This document shows, piece after piece, positions 44,838 through 51,191 of a DNA stretch of 51,320 nt; the stretch's first letter is position 1, and the number at the start of each line of letters is the position of its first letter. The stretch spans positions 1 to 51,320 of the forward strand of contig PWQX01000148.1 of the NCBI GenBank assembly GCA_003556605.1, given 5' to 3'. The notes under the pieces were generated by a model. The model was not told the DNA's origin and made no database searches. It saw only the letters and a list, made by a program, of their open reading frames with translations. This stretch comes from Spirochaetaceae bacterium. GTDB lineage: Bacteria > Spirochaetota > Spirochaetia > DSM-27196 > SLAA01. Both the position numbers and the translations under genes were made by a program.

Positions 44838-46673
44838 CTACCGGCCGGATTGGTGCGTCGCTGTGGTGGGCGTACCGAGCAGCGGGTTTACCGTGCTCAT
44901 GTGTAGCAGTTGCTGCTTCACCACCGCCATCTCCGCGGGAATCCGTGCCTTCCAGTCGGCGTAATCCTCGCCGAGGGTCGCCATCAGCCTGCGATAGTAC
45001 TCGATTCCGTCGAGCAAATTGTCGCGATACTTGCGAAGCTCTTCGGCGCTCCTGGTGCCCCGTGCGCGCGCCGAGTTGAACAGCTCGCGTCCCAAGCTGC
45101 TCACACAGAGCTTCAGTTCGTTCACAAACATATGCGGGCGCTTAGAGCCGACGATGAGGTTCATTCGCCCGTAGATATGATCCACCATCTGATGCAAGGT
45201 CGTGACCTTTGTGAAGAACGCCAGGTTCGGTCCCGGGCAGACCGCCGGTGTTGCCTTTTCGCGGTAGCGACCGGTGCCATAGTTGATCTCTACCGTGCCC
45301 GACAGATCACGGCAAAGACACGCCGGTTCGATGATCTCCTGATAGCGGCGCTCACGCTCCTCGCTGTCGAGTTCTTGCGTCTCGAGCTCCGCGAGCTTCT
45401 TCTCCAGGTATGGGCGCGATGCAACGCAAATCGGCTTCTCGGTAAACTCGGAGTTGAACTTCAAGTACCCTTTCGGACAATTACTGCCGGGCTTGCCTTC
45501 GCGCGCAAGCGCGTATTTGAACTGCTCGGATGCGGAGTTCACCAGGTTGCTGAAGCGTACGCCCAGCGGTGAGGCGCCGCTGGAAACGACCTGCTCCTCG
45601 CCTGCGGCCGCCAGCTTTGCAAGCGTATCGGGATCCAGATTGACCGTTTCGGGAACCAGCAGGAAGGGGGAGCCCCACCCGACTGCATCAATGTCATAGT
45701 GGCGCCGGAGAAAGCTGTGTTCGCGGGGGGTCCCCACGCCGCCTTGCACCGTGATCCGGAACTCCGGGCGCGGGCGCGCCGTGCCGGTACGCTTGGTCAC
45801 TGCAGCCTCGTACACAGAGTGCGCGGTTTCAAACAGCTCCGCCCGCCGCGATTTAAACTGCTCGAGGATCGGACCGAGTAACGAACCGTCGCCGTCAAAG
45901 GTGTGGCCACCGCAGTTGAGCCCCGACTCAACGCGGTATTCCGAGATCCAGACTCCACCGCGTGCGAACATCTTGGCCTGAGTAAGCGCCGAGCGAAAGT
46001 CACTGACCTTGAGCACAACTTTCTTCTTGAACACGCCGTTGGAGTCGGCCTGAAAATCGGGGAAACTCTCGAGGTACTTCGTGAGTCGCCGATTGAAGCC
46101 GGCCGACAGCACAATTGAAGACTCTAGGTCACTGCGGGCGAATCCGCGAAGTGCCGCCATGGCATCGCCGTACTCCGGGGGCCGCTTTTCTCCGTTGGTG
46201 TAGCGGTCGCGGTCCACCTTCACCATGATGTTCACATCGATATCGCCCGGCTGAACGGCGGCACGGAGCTCGCCTTGAAGCTTTGCGCGTTCGTCCGGGT
46301 CTGCAGTGTTCAGCATGGCGGTGTACTTGGAGCGAAGCTCTGAATCATCCGGCAATAGCTCAAAGTAGGTTGTGATCTCTGAGCCCGGTTCAAACGGCGC
46401 GTTACGCAGTGCCTCGGTGCTTTCCGAGACCATCGTTTTCAAGAGATTGAGATATGCGGTGAAGCGCCGCGCGCGGCAGTCATCATCTGAGTTGCGGATC
46501 GGTATGTACTCTTCACCGCGCTGGCGCTTGTAGTGCTCGCGGAGGTTTTCCGCAAGCTCGTCGTCTACCAGAGAAATGACCGACGAAATACCGTACTTCG
46601 CCACCTTCGCCGGAGTGTCAACCGAATAGCCGACGCCGAGCACGGGTATATGAAATGTGTGGGGTGTTTGCAA
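44838..46673 (-). CDS. Unknown 611-residue protein, possible TIM-barrel oxidoreductase-like fold
   Basis: I cannot name this family, though it looks conserved. The start is TTG at 46673 because CAGGAG lies 7 nt upstream; a GTG 27 codons earlier is the alternative. The protein opens with HIPVLGVGYSVDTPAKVAKY and SSVISLVDDEL, later GLNCGGHTFDGDGSLLGPIL (252-271) and TVQGGVGTPREHSF followed by VGWGSPFLLVPE (331-342). Strand-like segments ending in glycine-rich loops recall FMN-dependent TIM barrels such as nitronate monooxygenase, which is inference only. Eight cysteines (C66, C254, C399, C416, C452, C454, C479, C523), five of them at 399-479, may bind metal. No signal peptide or membrane helix. 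No functionally linked neighbour. Confidence 0.7.
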   Translation of the reverse strand: MQTPHTFHIPVLGVGYSVDTPAKVAKYGISSVISLVDDELAENLREHYKRQRGEEYIPIRNSDDDCRARRFTAYLNLLKTMVSESTEALRNAPFEPGSEITTYFELLPDDSELRSKYTAMLNTADPDERAKLQGELRAAVQPGDIDVNIMVKVDRDRYTNGEKRPPEYGDAMAALRGFARSDLESSIVLSAGFNRRLTKYLESFPDFQADSNGVFKKKVVLKVSDFRSALTQAKMFARGGVWISEYRVESGLNCGGHTFDGDGSLLGPILEQFKSRRAELFETAHSVYEAAVTKRTGTARPRPEFRITVQGGVGTPREHSFLRRHYDIDAVGWGSPFLLVPETVNLDPDTLAKLAAAGEEQVVSSGASPLGVRFSNLVNSASEQFKYALAREGKPGSNCPKGYLKFNSEFTEKPICVASRPYLEKKLAELETQELDSEERERRYQEIIEPACLCRDLSGTVEINYGTGRYREKATPAVCPGPNLAFFTKVTTLHQMVDHIYGRMNLIVGSKRPHMFVNELKLCVSSLGRELFNSARARGTRSAEELRKYRDNLLDGIEYYRRLMATLGEDYADWKARIPAEMAVVKQQLLHMSTVNPLLGTPTTATHQSGR

Positions 46674-46811
46674 AGCACTAACTCCTGAAGAGGCAACACA
46701 AGATGCCCAGGTAATCAAATAGCAGGGGTGAGCGTTCCCTGCTTCGTCTACCACTATATCACATGAGACTCTCCCTGTCTCCCGGTAACCGGGCTCCTGC
46801 TGTGCGCCGCT

Positions 46812-49800
46812 TCAACGGATCGTCGCGTACACCGGAAAATGATCCGAAGGGTAGCGGCCGTTGTCACTGCGCCGGTCGATCCCGGCCTCCAGCACCTTAA
46901 CGGTAGCAGGGGCGAGCACAAAGTCGATCTTCGTCGTCAGCGGCTCCCCGCCGAAATCGTGGAACGTGCCGATGTCTTCCTTGTCAGGATGTACAGCTCG
47001 AAAGGTGTCGTGCAAAGGTCGCGGATCGCGCCCGCTGCGCGAGGATTCCTCAAAAAGGAGACGCAACGCCGGATTGAGCTCGTTGGCATTGAAGTCGCCG
47101 GTTACCAGTACGAGCCCATCGGTTGGACGCTGCAGCATTCGTTTCAGCAGCAGGCGCGTGCTGTTTTCACGCGCTGCTTGAGAGGCGTAATCAAGGTGAA
47201 GGTTGTACAGGTGTACGCGCTCACCGGTGCGGCGGTCAGCGAGCTGTACCCAGGTGCAGATTCGCGGAAGCGCAGCGTCCCAGCTGCGGCTTCCGGGCTC
47301 AGCCGGGTCCTCGGAAAACCAGAACGTCCCATGGTCCTTGAGCTCAAACCGGTCTGAGCGATACATCACCGCGTTGAACTTACCCGCCGCCGATTCGTCG
47401 TTTACGTCGGCGCCGTCCTCGCTGGAACGGCCGACGAAGCTATAGTCTTCGAAGCGCTCCCGCAGCTCGCGAATCTGGACAAGCTCGGGCTCCTGTAGCC
47501 CCGCGAGATCCGGGTCGTGGTCAGCGATCACCTCGAATACCATTTCGCGCCGGTGCTCCCACCCGTCCTCACCGTCGGGCGCGCTCGCAAGCCGCACATT
47601 GAACGACAGGACCGTGAGCGGTTCATCGCGGCCCGGGTTGCCACGCCGATCGGCGGCGGGCGCCGATCGTGAGTTACCCCGCGCCGCGCTCGGAACTTCG
47701 GAACACGCGCCCGGCTCCAGGTCGTCGGTGTAGATTGAGCTCGCGCCGAGCTCTCGCAGGCGGTAGTACTCCTCACACGAGTTGATGGTGTGTGCGTAGC
47801 TCGGGATCCCGGCTTCGGCCAAACGCGCCGCCGTCCCGTCTTCCACCACCGCCACGGGCATCGCCACCGCCAGCAGCGCTTGGCCATGCGAATCCGCAAG
47901 CGCCCGGGCCTCCGACACCACCCGTTGCGGGTTGCGGTTTGCGGCGTACCGGTAGAGCGTCCAGATGATTCGCTCGTAGCCAAGCTCAAGCGCCTCGCCG
48001 AACTCATCGGGATGATACACTTGAGGAATGATGCGGCGCTCATGCCCGTCGATCCGCTCTGCGATCTTGGCTAACGCGCCGATGTTGTCGGCTTTCACAT
48101 CCGTAACGATCGCCGCGCGGGGGTGGTCTAACAGAAACTGCCGGAGCTGCATGAGGTCCACAGGCGTGACGCCGAGCGGGCTCTCAAGCTCACGGAGCTC
48201 GTCGTAGCGCAGTGGCTCCTCCGGCAGGAACCCGTACAGCCGCTCGAAGATCACCTCCCAGTCATGCAGTCCGATCAGCCGCTTGTCTGCCGTCCACTCA
48301 AAATCAAGTTCAAAGACCCGGTGCGCTGCGGCGTTCGCCTCGAGCGCCTCTACCGAATTGGTGTAAGTTGCCCCGGCGTAGCGGCCGCCGGCGTGTGCTA
48401 CGGGTACGAGCCGCGGCTCCCGCATGCGGTTATTGGCGCCGGCCTCGGTAATCGCGCGCGCGGCGTCCGCCGGAGACGCGGTGCCGCTCGGCCGCACCTC
48501 AAAGCGCTCGATTCGCGGTGCAAGGTGGTTCGCGCCTTCTTCATCCGCGGGCGCTGCGGCTCTCGGCTCGAGCTCGAGGCTGAGCCGGCGAACCGTGAGC
48601 CCGGCCGGCTGGTCGTCACGTAACGACTGCACCCGCAGATCTATCCACACGCGCTTGAGCGTCTCCGTGGTGGAGAACGCAACGCGGGCCTCAAACACCT
48701 CGCCGGGCTTCAGCGCGGGCATGGCGGGAAGCTCGAGGTCGAGCGCCTCATATTCGGCCAGCACCTGGAGTGCCGGGCGCAGCGCCGCTTCGCCCGGCGC
48801 CGGTTGTTCGCCGTCGGCGCCGGGCGGGTCTTCGCATTCGGCCACCGCCTCGAGTTCCAGATGAAGCGTCACCCTCGAGTCGGCCGGAATCTCGAGATAT
48901 TGGGCGCTGGTGAGCATCTTGCGCTCGCGCGGCGACAGCGTGTGAGCCGCGTTCTCCATCAGTACCCAGCTTCGCTCGCGCGGTATCGAGGGTTCGACAG
49001 TCTCGTCATCCGCGCGTGCGAGCGCATACTCTACCCCGGGAATATGGGTGGCGGCCAGGTACGCCGAGCGTAAACGGCCGGCGAGCTCCTGGTGGTCATC
49101 CTCGCAGTCCCGGCGGCGGGCGTAATCCGGAGCGAAAACCGCTCCGGTGCTCGGCACGTAGCTTGTGATGTGCCCGCGCTCCGGTACGTGGTACACCAGC
49201 GGCGCGGAAGCTCCGTGAGGGACCTTTGCGATGTAGGGACCGAAGAGCATCCGGTGCGGTGTGTCGTAGCTCCGCAGGAAGCTTCGTCCGGCGAAGGCGC
49301 GAGCGCGCTCATCGGCAGCGAGATAGTCGAGTACCGAGATCGGAAGGTCCCGAAGACCAACCAACTCTTCTTGGAGCACCGGCACATCCCCTGCCCCGGC
49401 CCGGTTCAGCTCCGGGGTTCTGATCACGGTAGTGCCCCAGTAGCGTCCAAAGACGTGACCGGTAACGCCGTGCGACTCATCGGACACAATGAACACCGCA
49501 GTGTTTTCCAAGTGCCCGTCGGCCTTGAGGCGTTCGAAGAAGTCGCCGAGCGCCTCGTCGAGGTACGCCACGGCCGCAATCTTGCGGCTGGGATAGCGCT
49601 CGGCGTATTCATCGCTGACGCCGTACGGATGGTGCGTACCGACCGTCAGGAGGCTGAGAAACCACGGCTTGCCTGCGGCGCGCTCGCGTTCAAGATCGTC
49701 GATGAAATCGGCAACCTGCTCGAGATACGCTTTGTCGTCCGGACCCCACTCGAACGGCACGTGGTTGTACTCAAACGCCTCTTTGCCGAGAACGTGCTCG

Positions 49801-51020
49801 AAGCCCGTCTCGGGCATGAATTGATCTTTGGACATATACGACAAGTCGGCCGCCTGCAGATAGACCGTCTCATAGCCGAGATCGCGCATCATTGCCGGCA
49901 GAGCCGGTGGTCGCAGCCGTTCGTCGGCCTGTATGTACGGGTAGATCTTGGGGGTAGATAGGTCAAGGCGGGGGTAGTCGCCGGTGAAGGCCGAATACAA
50001 CCCCCGAATTGTCTGCCGCGCGTGCGCTACCGACTGGGTGGCGATCAGGCCCGAGTCCGCAATCTTGCTCAGTGCCCCCATTTCTACCGGATAGCTCACC
50101 GCGGTGGCTTTCTGCACCTGGCGCAGGTAGACGCCCGGGATACCCTCCAGCATGAGTATCAAGACGTTGTGGTTATTCTCAGCCCGGGGAATCAGCAGCT
50201 CACCGTCCAGATCCCCTTGCAGTGGCCGTGCTCCCTCTTCGAACTGATCGTTGGCCTCCGCGGGGGTGCGGCCGGGTATCACGCGATCCGGAGCCGCCGA
50301 AACGTCGGAGCGGCCTATCCCGGCGCGCCGCAACGACTCGCGAACCGAACCGCTCACCACGCTGTCTTCCTGCCAAGTCAGCCCGGCCGGCGCCAAAGTC
50401 AGCACAGCAAGCCCCAACGCCGCAACGAGGCCGGCGCGCGCCAAATCCGCGCGGCCTGCAACCCTTCGACCCGCAAGTCTTCCGGCACCCGCGCGGCCGC
50501 CGGGCCGCCGGCTCCTCGATCGGCTCCTACGCTCATGCACGCCGAGACGCTCGCGCTGTGCACGCGCGGCGGCCACAGCGTACAGGCCGCACGCCACCGC
50601 AAGGGCCACCGCAAGCCATGCAAAATGGACCCGCGTAGCGCTCCCGCGCAGGAACACCTCGTGGGTCGCAAACACCGCATCCTGGACTTCCACAACGGTA
50701 TCCATCGCGGCGAGCATCTCGAGGTTGGCAACAAAGAACAGCGCGTAGAGCACGCCGAGCAGCACTGCCGGTAGGGTGTGAAGCGCCGCCAAAAGGTAGA
50801 TCGCCGCCAACACCACAGCCACCACTGTGAGCTCCAACGCCGGTGCGCGGATCGGCAGCTCCGCTGCCGGCAGCAGCCGCACGAGCAGCACTCGAGCGGC
50901 CATTGCCAGTGCCGCCGTTGCAACAGCCGCCGCTGCGGCACGACGCCGCTCGCGATACTCGACTCCGGTAAGCAGATGCATCGCAACACGCATCACAAGT
51001 CCACACCTATCTCGTATCAT
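46812..51020 (-). CDS. Membrane protein fusing LTA-synthase-like, GDPD-like and EEP-like domains
   Basis: 1402 residues in one unbroken frame. (1) N-terminal membrane segments (about residues 25-230) followed by an alkaline-phosphatase-fold domain (about 285-600) like lipoteichoic-acid synthases or membrane sulfatases; metal ligands match E292 (MLEGIPG), nucleophile T337 (RQTIRG), and D514/H517 (SDESHG). (2) A beta-rich linker (about 600-865). (3) A PI-PLC/GDPD-like domain (about 870-1110) with H876 (AHAGG), E904, D906 (ELDFEW) and H919 (HDWE). (4) An endonuclease/exonuclease/phosphatase domain (about 1135-1402) with N1141 (SFNVRL), E1177 (LQEPEL), GDFNAN, and D1393/H1394 (SDHFP). All three catalytic sets look intact. 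The orientation of the helices would place the enzymatic part outside the cytoplasm. The ATG at 51020 is chosen; a GTG at 51032 is possible. Confidence 0.85.
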   Translation of the reverse strand: MIRDRCGLVMRVAMHLLTGVEYRERRRAAAAAVATAALAMAARVLLVRLLPAAELPIRAPALELTVVAVVLAAIYLLAALHTLPAVLLGVLYALFFVANLEMLAAMDTVVEVQDAVFATHEVFLRGSATRVHFAWLAVALAVACGLYAVAAARAQRERLGVHERRSRSRSRRPGGRAGAGRLAGRRVAGRADLARAGLVAALGLAVLTLAPAGLTWQEDSVVSGSVRESLRRAGIGRSDVSAAPDRVIPGRTPAEANDQFEEGARPLQGDLDGELLIPRAENNHNVLILMLEGIPGVYLRQVQKATAVSYPVEMGALSKIADSGLIATQSVAHARQTIRGLYSAFTGDYPRLDLSTPKIYPYIQADERLRPPALPAMMRDLGYETVYLQAADLSYMSKDQFMPETGFEHVLGKEAFEYNHVPFEWGPDDKAYLEQVADFIDDLERERAAGKPWFLSLLTVGTHHPYGVSDEYAERYPSRKIAAVAYLDEALGDFFERLKADGHLENTAVFIVSDESHGVTGHVFGRYWGTTVIRTPELNRAGAGDVPVLQEELVGLRDLPISVLDYLAADERARAFAGRSFLRSYDTPHRMLFGPYIAKVPHGASAPLVYHVPERGHITSYVPSTGAVFAPDYARRRDCEDDHQELAGRLRSAYLAATHIPGVEYALARADDETVEPSIPRERSWVLMENAAHTLSPRERKMLTSAQYLEIPADSRVTLHLELEAVAECEDPPGADGEQPAPGEAALRPALQVLAEYEALDLELPAMPALKPGEVFEARVAFSTTETLKRVWIDLRVQSLRDDQPAGLTVRRLSLELEPRAAAPADEEGANHLAPRIERFEVRPSGTASPADAARAITEAGANNRMREPRLVPVAHAGGRYAGATYTNSVEALEANAAAHRVFELDFEWTADKRLIGLHDWEVIFERLYGFLPEEPLRYDELRELESPLGVTPVDLMQLRQFLLDHPRAAIVTDVKADNIGALAKIAERIDGHERRIIPQVYHPDEFGEALELGYERIIWTLYRYAANRNPQRVVSEARALADSHGQALLAVAMPVAVVEDGTAARLAEAGIPSYAHTINSCEEYYRLRELGASSIYTDDLEPGACSEVPSAARGNSRSAPAADRRGNPGRDEPLTVLSFNVRLASAPDGEDGWEHRREMVFEVIADHDPDLAGLQEPELVQIRELRERFEDYSFVGRSSEDGADVNDESAAGKFNAVMYRSDRFELKDHGTFWFSEDPAEPGSRSWDAALPRICTWVQLADRRTGERVHLYNLHLDYASQAARENSTRLLLKRMLQRPTDGLVLVTGDFNANELNPALRLLFEESSRSGRDPRPLHDTFRAVHPDKEDIGTFHDFGGEPLTTKIDFVLAPATVKVLEAGIDRRSDNGRYPSDHFPVYATIR

Positions 51021-51191
51021 CGAGCCCCACACCTTTTGGAGTCTTACAGAGCCCCGTACTAAATCACCAGCTCAAGTGTGACCCCGGTACGCCCCCTGAG
51101 TCAATTGGGGCTACGGATGCGCCGGGGCAGGTGCAGCGGGGAGCACCAGCTGGGCAAAACACATGGTGTGACCTCAGCATTTTGCAGCAAG

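Follow-up and report, generated by a model that had tools for sequence, protein, structure and literature searches.

A spirochaetal membrane protein that combines OpgB/LtaS-like, GDPD and EEP phosphatase domains in one reading frame

Our analysis showed that one gene on contig PWQX01000148.1 of a Spirochaetaceae bacterium encodes a 1406-aa protein in which a membrane module, an OpgB/LtaS-type domain of the alkaline-phosphatase superfamily, a beta-sandwich, a GDPD TIM barrel and an endonuclease/exonuclease/phosphatase (EEP) domain follow one another. The fusion is a real, conserved architecture in an evolutionarily maintained membrane protein. The stretch analysed, called the window below, is the entire 51-kb contig (51,320 nucleotides) of a 3.9-Mb draft genome. 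The nearest named relative of this genome is the Spirochaetaceae metagenome-assembled genome (MAG) B1Sed10_113R1, whose name we take to refer to a soda-lake sediment sample. The original prediction, made from the window sequence, knew of no protein with this domain order. Neither such a description nor a described member of this branch of the LtaS/OpgB superfamily was found in the literature searched, in which the architecture is so far undescribed. We tentatively read the protein as a membrane-anchored envelope enzyme handling glycerophosphate-type phosphodiesters, first as a transferase, then as a diesterase and then as a phosphatase.

The gene is a single open frame of 1406 codons with a GTG start at 51032. 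The start given in the original prediction, 51020, is an in-frame ATG at codon 5, and another lies at 50993; the claim of a single polypeptide holds. A Pfam search with the whole protein matched Sulfatase PF00884 at residues 289-526 (E 1e-34) and Exo_endo_phos PF03372 at residues 1142-1398 (E 2e-12). The GDPD profile PF03009, at residues 888-1105, scored 20.6 bits with the whole sequence, below its cut-off of 23.6 bits, which it passed with 27.9 bits when the domain was scanned alone; it also matched 12 of the 12 homologous GDPD domains. All three enzyme domains named earlier were recovered in that order. The AlphaFold2 (AF2) model of the full protein, with an overall predicted local distance difference test (pLDDT) score of 55 and a predicted template modelling score of 0.35, was too poor to place the three sites relative to each other.

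The same fusion was present in two further species of the genus, G001 and G002. The G002 contig (PUPD01000298) carries the equivalent of residues 338-1406 within one 1061-aa frame, while in G001 two contigs whose ends have 121 bp of identical sequence in common join into one unbroken 1323-aa protein that includes every domain. The GDPD-EEP linkers of the three species are unlike in length and sequence, and the gene directly downstream of the fusion, a 638-aa open reading frame (ORF), is identical in kind and orientation in all three. Although the window is a draft contig in which the gene lies 288 bp from the contig end, and the contigs of relatives likewise break within the homologous gene, an assembly or binning artefact joining unrelated genes is extremely improbable and was rejected, since the same junction occurs on separate contigs of two other genomes with differing linkers and all three genomes keep the downstream gene in synteny. 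The assembly join against which the original prediction had cautioned was therefore not found. Within the genus, pairwise dN was 0.14-0.22 against a dS of 1.0-1.9 in the LtaS-like, GDPD and EEP domains. This low dN relative to dS indicates purifying selection on each of the three catalytic domains, whereas dN was higher in the beta-sandwich and in the membrane part.

The profile of the LtaS-like family matched the PDB entries of VP1736 (3lxq; 4e-25), LtaP (4e-20) and LtaS (1.5e-13). Alignment by hhalign with E. coli OpgB (MdoB), which is phosphoglycerol transferase I, gave 98.4% probability, an E-value of 4.7e-15 and 25% identity over 265 columns; E296, T341, D518 and both the WG.DD and the THHP motif fall on their OpgB counterparts. 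The candidate active-site residues are E296, T341 (the candidate nucleophile), H467/H468 and D518-E519-S520-H521. T341 is invariant in 13 of 13 family members and aligns with the OpgB Thr, and E296 aligns with the Glu metal ligand of OpgB. Structure comparison matched the domain to LtaS with a VIA Z of 16.1 (266 residues, root-mean-square deviation (rmsd) 3.9 to 2w5q), to LtaP with 15.6 and to GacH with 13.8. The model has a pLDDT of 25-80 there; the sequence-profile matches to LtaS, LtaP and OpgB are independent of this low-confidence model. Four to five hydrophobic segments precede the domain in the six complete proteins scanned, and LtaS, LtaP and GacH likewise have a multi-pass N-terminal membrane part. 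The domain thus shares the fold, the Thr nucleophile, the Glu ligand and the membrane module with OpgB/LtaS-type phosphoglycerol transferases, but not their Asp-His pair. Unlike the membrane-anchored OpgB, which has neither a GDPD nor an EEP domain, and unlike LtaS, LtaP and GacH, the window protein has extra domains, and its host, in contrast to those of the latter three, is a diderm spirochaete.

The GDPD domain was modelled by AF2 with a pLDDT of 75-88, and its top VIA matches were nearly all GDPDs (Z 18-20), including 2pz0 (19.9) and B. subtilis GlpQ (19.8). When E. coli UgpQ was compared with the GDPD profile by hhalign, the alignment covered the last 60 columns alone (38.7% probability). 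Because this alignment was not full-length, the active-site residues were assigned by motif, H880, H923, E908 and D910 corresponding to H43, H85, E70 and D72 of GlpQ (PMC7086022). Both His and both acidic residues are conserved in all homologues covering them, and D978 and K980 are also conserved. The TIM barrel, the two catalytic His and the E.D ligands are common to the GDPD/GlpQ family, and membrane anchoring outside the cytoplasm is found in WhyD of S. pneumoniae, a GDPD that trims teichoic acid (PMC9208761). Unlike these enzymes, the window GDPD has HAGG for HRG and sits behind a transferase-like domain and before an EEP. Profile matches of this domain to designed SAKe proteins were dropped as a 27-residue chance match to a repeat.

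The closest solved relatives of the EEP domain by phmmer were 3g6s (8e-34), 3mpr (1e-33) and the mannosyl-6-phosphatase Bt3783 (4c1r; 2e-33). The whole EEP motif set (N, E, H, D.N, D, SDH), here N1145, E1181, H1279, D1313, N1315, D1370, D1397 and H1398, aligned to identical residues in 3g6s. These relatives are separate proteins, whereas the EEP of the window protein is a C-terminal fusion. By sequence the domain is closest to the mannosyl-6-phosphatase group, a name taken from the deposited label of one close solved relative, so that mannose-6-phosphate would be no more than a candidate substrate.

Homologues outside the genus form a nested series. Proteins of about 730 aa in Paenibacillaceae (L021-L023) have the membrane, LtaS-like and sandwich parts and end there. 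In families f3, f5 and f7 of the window's order and in distant spirochaetes (L018, L020, G063/L054), the GDPD follows in one frame, which stops at or shortly past its end. Among the architectures surveyed, the EEP is fused to these only in the window's genus. The architecture was thus built stepwise by fusion of known parts. Elsewhere the EEP orthologue is a separate gene (in G020, G040, G032 and G017, the last being partial because its contig ends there), with 50-63% identity across the domain, while general EEP paralogues have just 30-37% identity. Where complete, the separate EEPs have an N-terminal hydrophobic segment, to which G032 adds a lipobox-like AAC. These signal-peptide-like or lipoprotein-like N-termini and the membrane module at the front of the fusion agree with the envelope location proposed earlier.

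Of the 46 genomes of the order, 10 have an LtaS-like+GDPD gene, plus one decayed copy (G030), and 7 have a close EEP; all seven of the latter also have the LtaS-like+GDPD gene. The hypergeometric probability of this overlap, calculated by hand, is about 6e-6, a figure made optimistic by the relatedness of the genomes. The GDPD family of the window protein occurs in 13 of the 395 genomes of the class, among which no complete stand-alone gene for it was found, truncated contigs and the decayed G030 copy aside. Since the EEP is separate in relatives carrying the two-enzyme form, the three-enzyme form is a fusion confined to this genus, and its component proteins already co-occur elsewhere. Most simply, the EEP, a separate exported protein elsewhere, would have been joined in this genus onto an older LtaS-like+GDPD protein. 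As to the joints, where the original prediction had considered stop codons in homologues, the three-enzyme frame is continuous in other genomes of the genus; elsewhere it stops after the GDPD.

Some members depart from this series. One contig carries two paralogues separated by about 30 kb (L019:9881-12229 and L020:2705-5818), of which one is without exactly the GDPD, its frame resuming at the last residues of that domain, and the other is without the membrane module. Either module loss or a MAG assembly artefact may account for these differences. The decayed copy of G030 (L038:9697-10350) has lost the LtaS-like domain and keeps a shortened GDPD with a short membrane fragment upstream. The separate EEPs of G020 (L031:8993-10030, family f7) and G040 (L034:2529-3515, family f3) cluster together with strong support, and this grouping across host families hints at transfer. 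A plasmid search yielded a single 23% match, which lies in a stretch without annotation.

OpgB, LtaS and GacH transfer glycerophosphate from phosphatidylglycerol to glycans, and GDPDs remove glycerophosphate groups. In our tentative reading, the LtaS-like domain would take the headgroup of a phospholipid (phosphatidylglycerol in OpgB and LtaS), with phospho-Thr341 as the intermediate, and hand it to a sugar or glycolipid close to the membrane. The GDPD would hydrolyse the resulting or related glycerophosphodiesters, and the EEP would take off the remaining phosphate monoester, a sugar phosphate or glycerol phosphate. In this way one protein would add, cleave and clear up a single type of decoration, or would be responsible for its turnover. 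The sn-1 enantiomer, the product of LtaS-type enzymes, is not cleaved by GlpQ (PMC7086022). We speculate that a phosphatase makes sense here because LtaS-type enzymes deliver sn-glycerol-1-phosphate, which GlpQ-type GDPDs do not accept and which glycerol-3-phosphate metabolism is not known to use directly, and, no less speculatively, that the HAGG variant of the GDPD reflects a different stereochemistry.

This sequence of transferase, diesterase and phosphatase is backed by the OpgB/LtaS likeness, the GDPD Z of about 20, the EEP near mannosyl-6-phosphatase and the purifying selection on all three domains. Further backing comes from the GDPD family being met only attached to the LtaS-like domain, the co-occurrence of the EEP in 7/7 genomes, the export-signal-like N-termini of the separate EEPs and the precedent of WhyD. 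The original prediction had envisaged an enzyme that builds or trims a glycerophosphate-containing molecule and then processes the released headgroup. The profile alignment of the first domain with E. coli OpgB and its LtaS-like fold strengthen the link to glycerophosphate chemistry; the building or trimming and the later processing of the headgroup remain inferred.

Several observations weigh against this reading. The Asp-His metal pair (D475-H476 in LtaS; SDH in OpgB, SDE here) is D518-E519, within DESHG, in 13 of 13 members including distant homologues, so that transferase activity cannot be assumed. The phosphate-binding arginine of the GDPD motif HRG is alanine (HAG/HAA) in 11 of the 11 members covering it. 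The earlier claim that each domain has its catalytic residues in place was therefore mostly right, these two positions being excepted. From the sequence, H521, two residues downstream of E519, could compensate for the lost metal His. YejM/PbgA, which has an LtaS-like periplasmic domain and no GDPD or EEP, also has a replacement at the His-equivalent metal position, although the residue differs (Arg451 vs Glu), and still shows a reported Mg-dependent phosphatase activity (PMC7576196); it is a precedent for activity despite a changed residue in the metal pair. Two of the genus's five genomes, with a completeness of 76% and 92%, are without the three-enzyme gene, which is therefore accessory. MdoG (PF04349) was found in 0 of the 46 genomes of the order, with a positive E. 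coli control, so the window's whole order differs from E. coli in missing the backbone gene of osmoregulated periplasmic glucans (OPGs). The NdvB-type synthase (PF10091), present in 18 of the 46, is absent from the window's genus. An OPG or cyclic-glucan acceptor made via MdoG or NdvB is thus unsupported in this genus, and a glycolipid or a different polysaccharide may serve as the acceptor. Gene neighbourhoods are uninformative on the role, and those of the Paenibacillaceae and G012 homologues, near sugar-utilisation genes, fit a catabolic role equally well.

Such a role is possible, if somewhat doubtful: the protein could be a purely degradative ectoenzyme whose three domains are all hydrolases. 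These would serve nutrition by phosphorus or carbon scavenging, and not envelope building, in removing phosphate and glycerol from phosphorylated glycans, lipids or polymers resembling teichoic acid. It has three phosphoester hydrolase folds in series, its EEP is closest to an enzyme that by deposited name processes glycans, the non-canonical metal pair could mark a hydrolase, and YejM is an example of an LtaS-like protein that acts as a phosphatase (PMC7576196). The genes for glycoside hydrolases GH31, GH2 and GH9, a sulfatase and an apiosidase-like enzyme near family members in Paenibacillus and G012 point weakly the same way. However, the closest characterised relative of the first domain is the transferase OpgB, lipid-headgroup transferases typically have such a multi-pass membrane module, which is conserved here, the gene has no Pho or uptake neighbours in the window, and the LtaS-like domain with its sandwich exists without the other two domains.

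It is unlikely that one or two domains alone are catalytic, with the GDPD (HAGG) or the LtaS-like domain (DE for DH) now a substrate-binding or regulatory module. Both domains depart from canonical active sites, yet both GDPD His and its E/D ligands are kept in all homologues covering them, DESHG is invariant and not decayed, and the dN/dS of both domains is as low as that of the EEP.

The glycerophosphate reading can be taken further, to a proposal that we consider rather improbable as a whole. One membrane protein would be the writer, diester eraser and phosphate remover of one glycerophosphate-type envelope decoration, the spirochaete setting its level by the balance of activities inside one polypeptide, and the LtaS-like part would be a subfamily with an Asp-Glu metal site new to glycerophosphate transferases. 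Little has been established about how the glycolipids of spirochaete envelopes are made, and domain fusions point to enzymes sharing one substrate. The nested series, together with the separate EEP, which occurs solely where the two-enzyme form is also present, would offer three testable activities for one pathway. The features of the window discussed here are collected in Table 1.

Table 1. Positions in the window of the three-enzyme gene, its domains and the downstream gene.
Feature	Position	Strand	Basis
Whole three-enzyme ORF, 1406 aa	46812..51032	-	Continuous frame; fusion also present in G001 and G002
N-terminal membrane module, residues 1-220, 4-5 hydrophobic segments	50373..51032	-	Hydropathy scan, also of complete homologues
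OpgB/LtaS-like domain, residues 283-612	49197..50186	-	PF00884, PDB profile matches, hhalign with OpgB, VIA Z to LtaS
Beta-sandwich (jelly-roll) spacer, residues 613-875, fast evolving	48408..49196	-	AF2 model, weak jelly-roll matches, raised dN
GDPD domain, residues 879-1112	47697..48398	-	PF03009, AF2 model, VIA Z
EEP domain, residues 1135-1406	46815..47630	-	PF03372, phmmer
Downstream ORF, 638 aa, possible partner	44838..46754	-	Synteny in G001 and G002, same orientation

The beta-sandwich, predicted alone by AF2, was a jelly-roll with a pLDDT of 65. Its structural matches were weak, including carbohydrate-binding modules CBM4/16/61 at a Z of about 8, and these modelled likenesses would be compatible with glycan binding but are no evidence for it. 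Foldseek and VIA matches of the sandwich to VP2 of infectious bursal disease virus were not accepted as homology, nor was a match of sandwich plus GDPD to the phage phi812 spike (9eul), with an rmsd of 15.

The 638-aa downstream protein had no Pfam or NCBIfam match. The NdvB-like synthases of the order (L059-L063 and others) are mostly about 3000 aa long. A kinase gene overlapping the start of the separate EEP gene in G040 was rejected as a glycerol kinase, as it passes the xylulokinase cut-off only. GTTAAC occurs three times within 50 bp upstream of the three-enzyme gene (51192, 51211 and 51235) and in one other copy in the 51-kb window. These repeats, which are not conserved upstream of the G001 or G002 gene, are possible regulator sites.

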